Shown: piece after piece, positions 57,008 to 64,000 of the stretch
Position numbering within the stretch: the stretch's first letter is position 1
How the letters are laid out: every line of letters begins with the position of its first letter
DNA from: Chryseobacterium sp.
GTDB lineage: Bacteria; Bacteroidota; Bacteroidia; Flavobacteriales; Weeksellaceae
Direction of reading: 5' to 3'
Assembly (NCBI GenBank): GCA_031286615.1
Contig: JAITUA010000015.1
Coordinates: 434,001 to 498,000, forward strand
Length of the DNA stretch: 64,000 nt
Program-made: the position numbers and the translations under genes
The notes under the pieces: model-generated
The model's database searches: none
Seen by the model: only the letters and a program-made list of their open reading frames with translations
Told to the model about the DNA's origin: nothing

Positions 57008-57514
57008 TTTCAACAAACTTTCAAATCCTATAAAATCCGTCACTTTTTGGCGGATTTTTTCTATCCATTCATTCCAAATAAAAGTACTGAAAACCCCTCT
57101 GATTACAAAGCAACACAGCTGCTTTCAGAAAATGGATTGAAGAATAAAAATTTAAAATTGATGACTAAAAAATGATATAAAAAAGATCATTTAATATCAA
57201 AAGATAAATATCCACTATCCCTTAAAAAACCGTTCAAAAAAATACTTAAATTCCAGAGTAAAAAATGACAACAAGAAAGTTGTTTCTTTAAAGTTGTTTC
57301 ATTTTTTTACTGCATATCTTAAGAATTTAGTAACGAAAAACGAGCAGAATAATCTAAATTATAATGCCTGTTGAATAAAAAGTGTATTTTTAATAATAAC
57401 AAAATCAGTGCGTTATGGTTAAATAATTATTGTTTGCATAAAATGTCTTTCATGTTTTTATAAAATACCTATATTTACCACCAAGGAGTTCTTAACATCT
57501 TCTTTATCAACCGA
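57008..57514. other. AT-rich leader region before the cobalamin riboswitch
   Basis: No gene is seen. It starts with the terminator at 57032-57060. TATATTTA (57470-57477), one mismatch from TAnnTTTG, is a candidate -7 element for the riboswitch transcript. Confidence 0.4.
57032..57060 (+). terminator. Rho-independent terminator
   Basis: AAAATCCG and CGGATTTT form an 8-bp stem with an 11-base loop, continuing into a T-run. Confidence 0.8.
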
Positions 57515-57730
57515 AACTGGTTACACTTAGCTGTGTCTTAAAAGGGAATCGTGTGCAAATCACGAACTGTCGCGCAACTGTAAGTAACATCAAGGTTTTT
57601 ATCAAAAAAGGTTCACTGTATACCTCGCTATATGGGAAGGACGATAAAAACTGTTACAAGTCAGGAGACCTGCCTATTTCGAATTGACGATGCTTTCGCG
57701 GTCTGAAGCTTATAGTCAGGTATGATACGA
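57515..57730 (+). promoter_or_regulatory. Cobalamin (B12) riboswitch before prpBCD
   Basis: The aptamer core shows the conserved blocks AAAAGGGAA (57540-57548), CGCGCAACTGTAA (57571-57583) and the B12 box AAGTCAGGAGACCTGCC (57658-57674), in the right order and spacing. After the box, GTCAGGTATG (57715-57724) can pair with the ACCTGCC part of the box and offers an expression platform. It lies about 430-480 bp before prpB with no other operon gene between except a doubtful 72-codon frame. By family, adenosyl- or methylcobalamin binding would switch the downstream genes off. Confidence 0.9.
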
Positions 57731-57926
57731 TATGGATAACAGTGGGATCAATGTAATTTGTCGGCTCGTGTTATTTTTGTGATGCAGATAAGTAGTGAGG
57801 CAGTATGCTCTTTCATTATCGTGTATTCATCGTATTTTCCTTTTCCATATTTTTCTTTCTCACAGGCATTGTGAAGTTTATCAGGAACTTTTTATGAGGA
57901 TTTAACCAATATAAAAAGTTAGAAAA
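57731..57926. other. Leader between riboswitch and first possible start
   Basis: No gene or clear terminator stem recognised; may contain the rest of the riboswitch expression platform. Confidence 0.4.
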
Positions 57927-58145
57927 ATGTACCCATTCGATTTCGATTATTTATGCGGGAGCAGCAGGCTTGGAGATAAACAGGTTTGCAGGGAGTTAAT
58001 GATGTATAATTCCGGATCACAAAAAACGAATAAGACAGACCAGCTTTCTTTTAATTTCCTTTTTACCACCATATCATGGAATGGCGGTGGCTGTTGTTAT
58101 GCCTATTCATGGACTTCAGTAAACAAATTTCAACTAAAACAATAA
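57927..58145 (+). CDS. Doubtful small ORF between the riboswitch and prpB
   Basis: A 72-codon frame starts with ATG after an A-rich leader ([20 protein letters not shown]) and stops 8 bp before prpB. It has no recognised domain, no membrane segment and irregular composition. It may be a leader peptide coupled to prpB or just non-coding leader. Confidence 0.3.
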
Positions 58146-58153
58146 ATATTATA

Positions 58154-59050
58154 ATGACTACAAGTGAAAGTTTGAAGTCTCCCGGTTTGAAATTTCGGGA
58201 GGCCATGCGAAAAGAAAGTCCTCTTCAGATTGTTGGAGCCATTAATGCCAATCATGCGCTGTTGGCACAACAGGCAGGTTTCAATGCAATTTATCTTTCA
58301 GGAGGTGGTGTTGCTGCAGGTTCTCTGGGTATTCCGGATTTAGGAATTACCACGCTGGAAGATGTATTGATTGATGTTCAGCGCATCACGAATGTTTGTG
58401 ATGTACCACTGATGGTAGATGTTGATACCGGATTTGGACCTTCAGCATTCAATGTTGCAAGAACCGTAAAATCATTGATTAAAGCAGGCGCTGCAGCTCT
58501 GCATATTGAAGACCAGGTAGGTGCAAAACGTTGTGGACACCGCCCGGGAAAAGAAGTGGTAACCAAAGAAGAAATGGTAGATAGGCTGAAAGCTGCAGCA
58601 GATGCCCGCACCGATGAGAATTTTGTAATTGGTGCCCGTACTGATGCTTTTGCTAATGAAGGATTGGAAAAAACATTAGAAAGAGCAGTAGCTTACAAAG
58701 AAGCAGGAGCAGATTTCATCTTCGCAGAAGCTGTTCCGGACTTAAGCTTTTACCAAAGGTTTGTTGAAGCTACAGGAGTTCCTGTACTGGCCAATATTAC
58801 AGAATTCGGGATGATCAGAATGTACACGGTGGAAGAATTAAAAAATGCAGGCGTGGGATTGATTCTTTATCCGCTTTCGGCTTTCCGTGCAGCCAATAAA
58901 GCAGCGCAAAATGTGTATGAACACCTTCGCAAAGACGGAACGCAAGCCAATGTATTAGATACCATGCAAACCAGAGAAGAACTCTATCAAAGCATTGGTT
59001 ATTACGACTATGAACAAAAATTAGACAACCTTTTTAAACAAAATAATTGA
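58154..59050 (+). CDS. prpB: Methylisocitrate lyase PrpB
   Basis: From [17 protein letters not shown] the protein has 298 residues. The isocitrate-lyase superfamily motifs are [45 protein letters not shown] (catalytic Cys in KRCGH) and IGARTDA. It splits 2-methylisocitrate to pyruvate and succinate, the last step of the methylcitrate cycle. The upstream in-frame ATG (58076) is inside the doubtful ORF. prpC starts 2 bp after the stop. Confidence 0.95.
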
Positions 59051-59052
59051 TA

Positions 59053-60207
59053 ATGTCAACGAACAGTGAACCCACATTTAAACCTAAAAAAAGCGTTGCG
59101 CTTTCAGGGGTAGCAGCAGGTAATACTGCGCTTTGCAGTGTTGGAAAAAGTGGAAACGATCTCCATTACAGAGGATATGATATTCTGGATCTGGCAGAAA
59201 AAGCACAATTTGAAGAAGTAGCCTATCTTTTGATCTATGGCCAGCTGCCTACTGGAGCGCAATTGAAAAATTATAAAGCCAAGCTGAAATCTTTGAGAGG
59301 GCTGCCTCATTCCGTGAGAAACATTCTTAAGAGTATTCCCGCAGCTGCTCATCCAATGGATGTTATGCGTTCCATGGTTTCCGCTATCGGAAGTATTCAG
59401 CCGGAAAAAGACGATCATAATATGGCAGGAGCAAGGGATATTGCAGACAAATTACTGGCATCTTTCAGCTCAGGTCTGCTATACTGGTACCACTATACTC
59501 ATAATGGAAAAGAAATTGACGTAGAAACTGACGATGATACGATAGGAGGACATTTTCTTCACCTGCTGCACGGGAAAAAACCTGCAGATTCATGGGTAAA
59601 AGCAATGGAAATCTCGTTAAACCTCTATGCAGAACATGAATTTAATGCTTCAACATTTACCAGCCGTGTCATTGCCGGAACAGGATCTGATATTTACTCT
59701 GCCATTACCGGAGCAATTGGTGCTTTGAGAGGACCGAAACATGGAGGAGCTAATGAAGTGGCTTTTGAAATCCAAAGCCGATACAATTCTCCGGATGAAG
59801 CAGAAAATGATATTCGCCAGCGTATTGCGAACAAAGAAGTGATTATTGGTTTCGGGCATCCGGTGTATACCATTTCAGATCCTAGAAACGTTGTGATTAA
59901 AAAAGTGGCGAAAGAACTTTCAGAAGAAGCAGGAGATATGCTGCTGTATACTATTGCTGAAAGACTGGAAACGATCATGTGGGAAGAAAAGAAAATGTTC
60001 CCGAATCTGGATTGGTTTTCCGCTGTTTCTTATCACCTGATGGGAGTTCCTACCCTGATGTTTACTCCGTTATTTGTTATTTCAAGAGTAACAGGATGGA
60101 GTGCCCACATTATCGAACAGAGGCAGGATGGAAAAATTATCCGCCCAAGTGCTAACTATACAGGGCCCGAAAACAAAGAATTTGTGTCCATCAACGACCG
60201 TAAATAA
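59053..60207 (+). CDS. prpC: 2-methylcitrate synthase PrpC
   Basis: The 384-residue citrate-synthase-family enzyme contains [63 protein letters not shown] and [14 protein letters not shown]. It condenses propionyl-CoA with oxaloacetate. In-frame starts upstream (TTG at 59047) are unlikely. Context with PrpB and PrpD makes the methylcitrate role clear. Confidence 0.94.
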
Positions 60208-60292
60208 TAGAATGGCGGAAATGAAAAGAAACAATTCATTTCAACTTTTCACACTTAACTTTTAATTAATTAAAATTTTTCAATAATAAAAA

Positions 60293-61744
60293 ATGAGTTC
60301 ACACATCTCAAACGAAAGACCACAACCCGATCAGGTATTAACAGACATTGCAGATTATGTCTTAAACTACGAAATTAAAAATGACTTAGCATGGAAGACC
60401 GCTCACTACTGTCTTCTTGATACCATCGGCTGTGGTCTGGAAGCATTGACTTATCCGGCATGTACAAAACTTTTAGGACCTGTGGTAAAGGGAACCGTAG
60501 TTCCTAACGGAGCAAAGGTACCGGGTACCCAATTCCAGCTGGATCCTATTCAGGCTGCGTTCAATATCGGAGCGATCATCCGTTGGCTGGATTTCAATGA
60601 TACATGGCTGGCAGCAGAATGGGGACATCCTTCTGATAACCTTGGAGGGATTTTAGCGACTGCAGACTGGTTATCCAGAACAAATATTGCAGAAGGAAAA
60701 GCTCCTTTGAAAATGAAACAGGTACTGGAAGCCATGATTATGGCTCACGAAATTCAGGGAGTAATGGCACTGGAGAATTCATTCAACAAAGTAGGACTGG
60801 ATCACGTTTTATTGGTAAAGCTGGCTTCTACAGCAGTTGTAGGAAAGCTGATCGGGTTAAACCGTGATGAAATTATCAATGCCGTGTCACTGGCTTTTGT
60901 GGACGGACAGTCTTTAAGAACTTACCGCCACGCTCCCAATACAGGTTCACGTAAATCATGGGCTGCAGGAGATGCTACCTCAAGAGCGGTACGTCTTGCA
61001 CTGATTGCAAAAACAGGAGAAATGGGCTATCCATCTGTATTGACAGCAAAAACATGGGGATTCTATGATGTCTCCTTCAAAGGAAATGAATTCAAATTCC
61101 AGAGAGAATACAGTTCTTACGTAATGGAAAATGTACTCTTTAAAATTTCTTTCCCTGCAGAATTTCACTCGCAGACTGCAGTGGAAGCTGCAATGACATT
61201 ACACGCAACTTTAAGAGGCCTTGGGAAAACAACAAATGATATCAAAAAAATTACCATCCGTACCCACGAAGCAGCGATTAGAATTATCGATAAAAAAGGA
61301 CCGTTGAATAATCCTGCCGACCGTGATCACTGCATCCAATACATGGTGGCTGTACCATTGATTTATGGAAGACTGACAGCTGCCGATTATGAAGATAACA
61401 TTGCTTCAGATCCTGAAATTGATATACTTCGTGACAAAATTGAATGTGTAGAAGATGTTCAGTTTACAGCAGACTATCACGATCCGGAAAAACGCTCTAT
61501 TGCAAATGCGATGAAAGTAGAACTTAATGACGGAACCATTTTAGACGAAATAGTGGTAGAATATCCCATTGGTCACAAACGCAGAAGAGATGAAGGTATT
61601 CCTGAACTGATCAAGAAATATAAAGTTAATCTTGCCCGTATTTTCCCGGAAAAACAACAAAGAACAATCCTTGAAAATTCATTGGAATATGACACCTTAG
61701 TGAATCTTAACGTCAATGAATTTGTAGATCTTTTAGTCATTTAA
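60293..61744 (+). CDS. prpD: 2-methylcitrate dehydratase PrpD
   Basis: The 483-residue MmgE/PrpD protein has [69 protein letters not shown] and [13 protein letters not shown]. It dehydrates 2-methylcitrate to methylaconitate. It follows prpC by 85 bp, with an inverted repeat after it. Confidence 0.94.
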
Positions 61745-61886: not shown

Positions 61887-63383
61887 ATGTCACAAAAAAT
61901 AAAAATATTAATCAATGGAAATTTTACAGAAAGTAAAACGAAAAACTATCTTCCTGTAGAAAATCCTGCTTCACAGGAGATCCTTGCAGAAGTTCCTCTC
62001 ACGGAATTGTCTGAAATAGATGAAGCTATTGAAGCTGCCGTAGAAGCCTTCAAAATATGGAAAGAAGTTGCCACTCCTGAAAGAGCAAGATTATTTCTGA
62101 AATACCAGAATCTTTTAAAAGAACATCAAAAAGAAATTGCAGAAATTCTCTCTAAGGAAAACGGAAAGACCTTTGCAGATGCTATGGGAGACGTTTGGCG
62201 CGGTATAGAAGTAGTAGAACATGCCTGTAATATTCCGACTCTGATGATGGGGGAAACAGTAGAAAACGTAGCAAGAGGAGTAGACACTTACAGTTACATT
62301 CAGCCTCTTGGGGTCTGTGCAGGAATTACTCCTTTTAACTTCCCGGCCATGATTCCTTTGTGGATGTTTCCTATGGCGATAGCATGCGGTAATACCTTTA
62401 TTTTAAAACCTTCCGAGCAGACTCCTATGACCTCTATGAAAATGGCAGAGCTGTTTTTGGAGGCAGGCTTTCCTAAAGGTGTTTTAAATATTGTTCATGG
62501 TACCAAAGATCAGGTAAACCATATTTTGAATCATGCTGATATCAGAGCTATTTCATTTGTAGGCTCTGTACCGGTTGCAGAACATGTTTACCGTACCGGA
62601 ACCGATAATCTGAAAAGAGTTCAGGCTTTTGGCGGAGCTAAAAATCATATGGTGGTCATGCCGGATGCGAATAAAAGTCAGGTAATCAATAATTTGGTGG
62701 GAGCTTCCTGTGGTGCTGCCGGCCAGCGTTGTATGGCGATCAGTGTTGCAGTATTGGTAGGAGAGGCCCAAAACTGGGTAGAAGATATTAAAATGGCTTT
62801 AAGTACAATCAAACCAGGAGTTTGGTCTGATGAATCTGCTGCATTTGGTCCGTTAATCAATCAACAATCAAAAGATAAAGTGTTAAGATTGATTAAAAGT
62901 GCTTACGATCAGGGAGCAGAAGTTCTGTTAGATGGAAGCAACTGTACCGTAGAAGGCTATGAAAAAGGATATTTTGTAGGACCTACCTTATTTAATAATG
63001 TTTCTGTGGATATGGATATCTACAAAGAGGAAATTTTTGGGCCGGCATTACTATTATTAAAGGCAGAAACCTTAGATGAAGCGATCAGAATTATTAATGA
63101 AAACCCGTACGGAAACGGAACCTCAATTTTTACCAATTCAGGAGCTGCTGCAAGAAAATTCCAGCATGAAATTGAAGTAGGGCAGATTGGAGTTAACCTT
63201 CCGATTCCTGTTCCACTGCCGTTTTTCTCTTTTACAGGATGGAGAAAGTCATTCTTTGGCGATCTGCATTCTTACGGAAAACAAGGGGTTCGTTTCTACA
63301 CCGAAACCAAGACCATTACAGCCCGTTGGTTTGAAGAAGATGTGCCGGGAGGAAGTGTGAACATGACCATCAACTTAAAATAA
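61887..63383 (+). CDS. mmsA: CoA-acylating methylmalonate-semialdehyde dehydrogenase
   Basis: The 498-residue aldehyde dehydrogenase has [37 protein letters not shown] and the catalytic cysteine in [17 protein letters not shown]. It converts methylmalonate semialdehyde to propionyl-CoA in valine degradation and so supplies the methylcitrate cycle encoded upstream. It has its own leader. Confidence 0.93.
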
Positions 63384-63488: not shown

Positions 63489-64000
63489 ATGGAGTTTAAC
63501 CTAAATGAAGATCAGCTGGCATTTCAGGATGCCGCGAGAAAGTTTGCTGAAAAAGAGCTGTTTCCATATGCTTCAGAATGGGATGCTGAAAAGAAGTTTC
63601 CCAAAGAAGCTATTATTAAGGCCGGAGAATTAGGTTTCTGCGGTGTATATACCAGTGAAGAAGCCGGAGGACTGGGATTATCACGGCTGGATGCTGCCAT
63701 TATATTTGAAGAACTGGCAGCAGCATGTCCTTCTACTACGGCCTATATTACCATACACAATATGGTGTCATGGATGACTGATGAATTTGGAAATGATGAA
63801 ATCAGAAAAAACTTATGCCCGGATCTCGCATCAGGTAAACTTTTAGGCTCCTATTGTCTTACCGAACCAGGTTCAGGCTCAGATGCAGCAGGCCTGAAAA
63901 CAACTGCCATAAAAAAAGGAAACAAATATATTATTAATGGAACCAAAGCTTTTATCTCCGGAGCAGGTGAAAGTGATATATTAATTGTAATGGCCCGCAC
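63489..64000 (+). CDS. Acyl-CoA dehydrogenase, cut by the window end
   Basis: The frame starts MEFNLNEDQLAFQDAARKFA and runs open to the window edge (about 170 residues seen). Acyl-CoA dehydrogenase signatures GLGLSRLDAAIIFEELA, GSYCLTEPGSGSDAAGLKT and NGTKAFISGAG are clear. Next to mmsA it is probably isobutyryl-CoA dehydrogenase of valine breakdown. Confidence 0.92.
   Translation, partial: MEFNLNEDQLAFQDAARKFAEKELFPYASEWDAEKKFPKEAIIKAGELGFCGVYTSEEAGGLGLSRLDAAIIFEELAAACPSTTAYITIHNMVSWMTDEFGNDEIRKNLCPDLASGKLLGSYCLTEPGSGSDAAGLKTTAIKKGNKYIINGTKAFISGAGESDILIVMAR

Follow-up and report, generated by a model that had tools for sequence, protein, structure and literature searches.

A cobalamin riboswitch upstream of the methylcitrate cycle genes prpBCD in Chryseobacterium, and its probable role as a B12-responsive OFF switch

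Introduction

How would a bacterium that encodes both a B12-dependent and a B12-free route for propionyl-CoA set the choice between them? The question is raised by a 64,000-nucleotide stretch of a Chryseobacterium sp. genome (contig JAITUA010000015.1; the whole stretch is referred to here as the window), in which a cobalamin riboswitch lies upstream of prpB, prpC and prpD, the genes of the methylcitrate cycle. We consider it likely that this element belongs to class I, responds to adenosylcobalamin and switches the methylcitrate cycle off, and that this Chryseobacterium probably makes its B12-free propionate route solely when the vitamin is missing. The computed basis for this reading is the aptamer itself, its gene neighbours, the conserved pairing with prpB, the presence of both routes in the genome, and signs of structure in the leader.

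The aptamer and the prp operon

A cmscan search of the whole 64 kb window returned a single Rfam match above its gathering score, RF00174 (Cobalamin), at 57501-57691 on the + strand with 94.7 bits (E 2.7e-22). The match is full-length (model positions 1-189 of 189) and far exceeds the gathering score of 31.5. The B12 box AAGTCAGGAGACCTGCC can be read from the sequence at 57658-57674, with zero mismatches to the search pattern in both own-genome copies (L006 and L007), and the L5 sequence UCGCGC lies at 57570-57575. The B12 box and core named in the original prediction are therefore borne out; its placement holds in part, since the element is real but the proposed start at 57515 falls 14 nt inside the aptamer. 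The RF00174 element upstream of prpB is thus confirmed, and is best read as a class-I cobalamin riboswitch, a class that favours adenosylcobalamin (PMC12713380).

The three genes that follow on the + strand each score above their NCBIfam equivalog cut-offs, which upholds their earlier assignment: prpB, methylisocitrate lyase (58154..59050; NF008455 507.9 bits, cut-off 353; TIGR02317 412 bits, cut-off 354.4), prpC, 2-methylcitrate synthase (59053..60207; NF009006 701.1 bits, cut-off 550), and prpD, 2-methylcitrate dehydratase (60293..61744; NF006943 880.7 bits, cut-off 575; TIGR02330 858.7 bits, cut-off 458). The nearest named relative among the matches listed is Chryseobacterium panacisoli (96% in PrpB), and this assigns the genome to Chryseobacterium. 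The best start for prpB, chosen from the leader alignment, is 58154; an in-frame ATG at 58076 was rejected, as it is not kept across the aligned leaders. The prpC frame is open from a TTG at 59047, with an ATG at 59053.

The B12-dependent route, whose genes the original prediction proposed to look for, is also encoded: methylmalonyl-CoA mutase is represented by two frames, one of 706 aa on C20 and one of 387 aa on C3, and the genome encodes a cobalamin adenosyltransferase. A MetH activation domain was found in an 889-aa frame, and a metE preceded by a riboswitch is encoded as well; for methionine synthesis, it seems, this genome already applies the same kind of bypass. Both propionyl-CoA routes and both methionine synthases are thus encoded, each bypass being preceded by a riboswitch. 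Separately, a further frame of 1121 aa (G000:C11:133928-135613; L013, L015) matches the mutase family in two pieces, and is presumably a fused isobutyryl-CoA mutase (IcmF) that exists besides the two-frame mutase.

Conservation of the pairing with prpB

Among the 98 genus genomes drawn, prpB was found in 16 (E up to 1e-60), while the methylmalonyl-CoA mutase family and at least one cobalamin riboswitch were each found in all 98. A family-wide draw, with prpB in 21 of 197 genomes, raised the number of prpB-bearing genus genomes to 23. RF00174 lies upstream of prpB on the same strand at every one of these 23 same-genus loci, and the riboswitch is therefore not a chance neighbour of the gene. In other genera of the family it precedes prpB at four of nine loci (L039-L042) and not at the other five (L043-L047, the prpB of L047 being a 40% homologue), which brings the family draws to 27 of 32. 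The start of the aptamer and that of the prpB match are 516-520 nt apart in the Elizabethkingia type; in the genus rows they are 580-657 nt apart, the window having 653 nt.

A named collection of 80 prpB loci was examined with the B12-box pattern throughout and with Rfam at 22 loci, most proteobacterial loci being covered by the pattern only. Among the matches listed, four have a riboswitch upstream on the same strand (L048, L049, L051, L052), and these belong to three Chryseobacterium and to Elizabethkingia occulta. Rfam found no riboswitch at the prpB loci of Elizabethkingia argenteiflava, Myroides, Pedobacter, Sphingobacterium and Parapedobacter. A further 17 named loci hold stretches that resemble the box at 2-3 mismatches; judged by position, none is both same-strand and less than 1 kb upstream of prpB, and Rfam returned no riboswitch at L053, the sole one of the 17 put to it. 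Three loci (L060, L064, L136) hold fewer than 400 bases upstream of prpB, which makes absence there weakly informative. Order-wide, prpB scored above the cut in 6 of 296 genomes; phylum-wide it did so in 5 of 395, this genome included, and the loci fetched from the other four carry no riboswitch.

The leader and the proposed mechanism

A stretch of 462 nt separates the aptamer from prpB. The leader alignment holds 31 rows, of which L048, L049, L051 and L052 look to be from the same genomes as L032, L028, L042 and L031, leaving about 27 independent. The aptamer core is nearly invariant across these rows and much of the leader behind it drifts. Upstream of the aptamer, a promoter-like element, TATATTTA (57470..57477, +), is invariant in 31/31 rows; it was compared with TAnnTTTG, which we take to be the consensus of the Bacteroidota -7 element. 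Directly behind the B12 box, a P13-like hairpin (57676..57709, +) is nearly invariant in the 31 rows, and the metE and thioesterase riboswitches of this genome have a similar one. Complementary CGCG in the loop UUUCGCGG (57694-57701) of this hairpin and in L5 might allow the two to kiss.

The hairpin is followed by a candidate anti-aptamer strand, AUAGUCAGGU (57712..57721, +), which is complementary to ACCUGCCUAU (57668-57677, the 3' half of the B12 box) with nine pairs and one mismatch by eye. The predicted probability of this helix without ligand is 0.83-0.90 in the window and averages 0.42 over the 31 rows, about equal to the mean of 0.36 for the upstream pairing of the B12 box. A leader peptide starting at ATG 57722 (MIRYG) was also weighed and set aside, since in L031 it comprises two codons and in the Elizabethkingia type neither its length nor its sequence is kept.

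We infer the ligand, the direction of control and a two-state fold based on anti-aptamer exchange. The riboswitch in the prpBCD leader would sense adenosylcobalamin. With B12 present, the ligand would hold the B12 box within the aptamer and prpBCD would be expressed at a low level, leaving propionyl-CoA from valine, isoleucine and odd-chain acids to pass through the B12-dependent methylmalonyl-CoA mutase. Without B12, the box would pair through its 3' half with AUAGUCAGGU to give the leader's other fold, in which the methylcitrate cycle would be made as a B12-free bypass. Since the leader shows no direct sign of direction, the reverse arrangement, an ON switch by which B12 increases prp expression, has to be weighed. 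The metE neighbour and the metabolic logic nevertheless indicate OFF, and most cobalamin riboswitches identified to date reduce expression upon binding (PMC11575231); we regard an ON switch as very improbable.

A putative structured domain behind the aptamer

Beyond the candidate anti-aptamer strand, a comparative model places a three-way-junction RNA domain at 57724..57836 (+), in which a closing stem, GAUACGAU / AUCGUAUU, surrounds two hairpins. It runs into a conserved pyrimidine tract (57835..57862, +) that is aligned in the 23 genus leaders. The model, built from eight near relatives, matches all 23 genus leaders given to it, eight of these being its own seeds and the weakest non-seed match having an E of 0.06. 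At E up to 0.1 it gave no match at the remaining five riboswitch loci of this genome, nor at two loci of the Elizabethkingia type.

Covariation was compared with shuffled alignments. In the model-fitted alignment, which leans towards the junction structure, covariation was strong: both-side changes were seen in 22 pairs (12.6 when shuffled) and in 69 cells (27.4 when shuffled). The signal was weaker in the plain alignment, which gave 40 such cells against 18.2 (reached by 0/500 shuffles) and 12 pairs against 9.2 (42/500), with a covariation score reached by 4/500 shuffles and further pair types that did not rise above the shuffles (394/500). On the plain alignment of 23 leaders, RNAalifold did not return the closing stem or either inner hairpin, and gave instead a competing stem, UAUGGA/UCCAUA, that is also possible. 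When two groups of leaders were folded separately the closing stem was kept in both, the first hairpin differing in the second group. The folding z of the junction averages -2.28 over the 23 leaders and is -0.46 in the window copy, and for 57645-57860 the fold does not surpass that of shuffled sequences (z +0.54); neither window value is significant, and the junction claim therefore rests on comparison. Taken together, the leader shows signs of a lineage-specific three-way junction with some covariation. Further downstream, an AT-rich inverted repeat, AACTTTTTAT...ATAAAAAGTT (57886..57920, +), appears as paired columns in the consensus fold of the 23 leaders; it is kept in most genus leaders, and could be either an RNA hairpin or a protein operator.

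It is conceivable, though we would not favour it, that 57724-57862 represents a new kind of expression platform, a covarying junction, particular to this lineage, with a pyrimidine tract that would act for instance through Rho access or RNA decay, or would be released as a B12-responsive small RNA. In the former case the platform would need neither an ordinary terminator nor a start codon close by to convert aptamer state into prp output. An unlikely alternative is that the riboswitch governs a short regulatory RNA, made up of aptamer and junction, instead of or besides the prp mRNA. A leader of 462 nt with its own junction and pyrimidine tract does exceed the length that a switch needs, and there is precedent in Listeria for a B12 riboswitch that controls an antisense RNA (cited in PMC11575231). 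This would, however, have to be reconciled with an aptamer that accompanies prpB in all 23 genus loci, with the lack of a junction match at this genome's other five riboswitch loci, and with a leader in which no conserved second promoter was seen by eye. Control of the prp mRNA itself remains the reading that we prefer.

Valine genes, metE and the other riboswitches

Immediately behind prpD lies mmsA, methylmalonate-semialdehyde dehydrogenase (61887..63383, +; TIGR01722 787.8 bits, cut-off 448.5, a subfamily model), whose role is in the breakdown of valine to propionyl-CoA and whose place in the gene order is kept in several relatives. It is followed by an acyl-CoA dehydrogenase that runs past the window end (63489..63998, +; L007 6490-7650), with family matches and no equivalog above cut-off. 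Beyond the window, L007 continues with a 3-hydroxyisobutyryl-CoA hydrolase (above a subfamily cut-off), a 3-hydroxyisobutyrate dehydrogenase (above its equivalog cut-off) and an enoyl-CoA hydratase (no model above cut-off among those shown). As annotated, the gene run reads as the methylcitrate cycle and then valine degradation to propionyl-CoA, and mmsA and the further valine genes are possibly on the prpBCD transcript.

A second cobalamin riboswitch with metE stands beyond the prp operon, 11 kb from the prp switch in the window strain. The original prediction, right about the prp genes, had overlooked this pair together with the 462-nt stretch and the valine genes past prpD. The window strain, L200 and L201 share the order riboswitch, prpBCD, valine genes, asnC (opposite strand), riboswitch, metE. 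In L199 the valine genes are missing, yet riboswitch, prpBCD, asnC, riboswitch and metE are kept, and in L202 metE is absent from the 16 kb taken and located on another contig. In the Chitinophagaceae metagenome-assembled genome (MAG) L054, a riboswitch stands before metE, divergent from prpBC. With these linkages of metE and prp, two B12-free bypasses are found side by side on more than one occasion. A Chitinophagales MAG (L061 3211-9035) was also seen to carry metE 25 nt before prpBCD, head to tail on the same strand; no riboswitch was found at this metE-prpBCD locus.

Within the genus, metE was found in 45 of 60 genomes; 30 of these loci were fetched, and 29 of them have a B12 box upstream. 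A rough tree built from 89 riboswitch sequences, with weak deep support, clusters the metE switches (29) with those of prp (27), and weakly within them; by their sequences the prp, metE and thioesterase switches appear to be close kin. This grouping, and the 11 kb that separate the two switches, might be taken to mean that the prp riboswitch is a leftover or passenger of its metE neighbour that no longer controls prp. We give this little credence: the near-invariant aptamer core amid a drifting leader is what functional selection would leave, and the riboswitch stays with prpB where metE is elsewhere (in G044, prpB is on C30 and metE on C10).

Six cobalamin riboswitches were found across the 4.88 Mb assembly. 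Judged by downstream genes, their targets are prpBCD, metE, a hot-dog thioesterase (PF03061), a Por-tailed secreted protein, and two loci that combine a TonB receptor with DUF5074 proteins. The thioesterase is a 127-aa hot-dog (4HBT) protein (L008 8323-8706, - strand, on G000:C14) whose riboswitch (L008 8826-9005, -) ends 119 nt before the gene. The gene was found in 60/60 genus genomes searched, with a B12 box 128-137 nt upstream in 30/30 loci fetched, and its product could release CoA trapped as propionyl- or methylmalonyl-CoA under B12 shortage. Two secreted proteins that are associated with riboswitches and bear a Por secretion tail (L010 8488-9591, -; L011 10168-12426, +) have N-terminal parts that are alike by eye and that matched no Pfam family; they are candidate extracellular B12 binders.

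Discussion

Several observations weigh against an OFF switch on the methylcitrate cycle. At 5 of the 32 family prpB loci there is no riboswitch, one of these sharing the Elizabethkingia-type genus handle, which means that the methylcitrate pathway has no need of one. The start codon of prpB is 462 nt away from the aptamer. A simple scan of 57300-58200 found no + strand intrinsic terminator and two weak - strand ones, and a sigma-70 scan of the same region found no sigma-70-like site on the + strand, all five of its sites being on the - strand and no more numerous than in shuffles. The anti-aptamer helix has a probability near zero in 13 of the 31 rows. The gaps of 142 nt between prpD and mmsA and of 310 nt between the acyl-CoA dehydrogenase and the hydrolase leave a shared transcript with the valine genes uncertain. 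Finally, Corynebacterium glutamicum is described as lacking any cobalamin riboswitch while encoding both routes for propionate (PMC11071462).

If the proposed control is true, an RNA would switch directly between two propionyl-CoA disposal routes, governed by the cofactor that determines which one can work, and the bypass logic of metE would extend to a whole carbon pathway. It would also provide a genomic marker of B12-dependent propionate use in Chryseobacterium, and would suggest that prp, metE and the acyl-CoA thioesterase form one B12-starvation response. A leader in which no ordinary terminator was found, and which has its own structured domain, offers a testable, uncharacterised expression platform in Bacteroidota.

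Comparison with known systems

The original prediction called this use of the riboswitch little-described, which fits the literature searched: the texts covered place no cobalamin riboswitch on prp genes, most subscription papers, 2003 comparative-genomics papers on B12 regulation among them, lying outside this scope. On this coverage, the riboswitch class is a known one and the prp operon a target new to it. The RNA regulon survey of Sun and others (2013) has a class of 'isozymes of B12-dependent enzymes', and its main text, as distinct from its supplements, contains the words 'methylcitrate', 'propionate' and 'methylmalonyl' 0 times (PMC3766115). Xylanibacter ruminicola has four cobalamin riboswitches, none reported near a propionate-pathway gene in the text covered (PMC11575231), and those of Corynebacterium are assigned to cobalt transport and metE (PMC11071462). 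The portions covered of eight further papers likewise contain no prp-linked cobalamin riboswitch (PMC10924821, PMC2211319, PMC4428469, PMC11287211, PMC13296017, PMC3603451, PMC6461909, PMC8088520).

A close physiological parallel is in Mycobacterium tuberculosis, where B12 represses the methylcitrate cycle, so that expression of the pathway goes down with B12 as it would under the proposed switch (PMC12713380). The means differ, the mycobacterial effect being described as a transcriptional shift of the PrpR operon, and the three cobalamin riboswitches reported there lying on metE, ppe2 and rpfB (PMC12713380). In Caenorhabditis elegans, too, low B12 turns on another propionate route, the propionate shunt (PMC7561351).

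At the level of the RNA, a close comparison is with metE, and its cobalamin riboswitch, known in M. tuberculosis, differs from the prp switch in having one isozyme as its target and not a three-gene pathway. The C. elegans shunt differs in being an animal response triggered through transcription by propionate build-up and relying on other chemistry. Within the genus, the B12 box lies 188-198 nt from the start codon at 21 of 29 metE loci and 380-551 nt at the other 8, compared with 479 nt for prp here, and the metE locus of this genome gives no match to the three-way-junction model of the prp leader. The L5, P13 and B12-box flanks of the two switches of this genome are similar, with 73% identity over 183 aligned positions, and in both cases RF00174 stands before the gene for a B12-free bypass while the B12-dependent route is encoded elsewhere.

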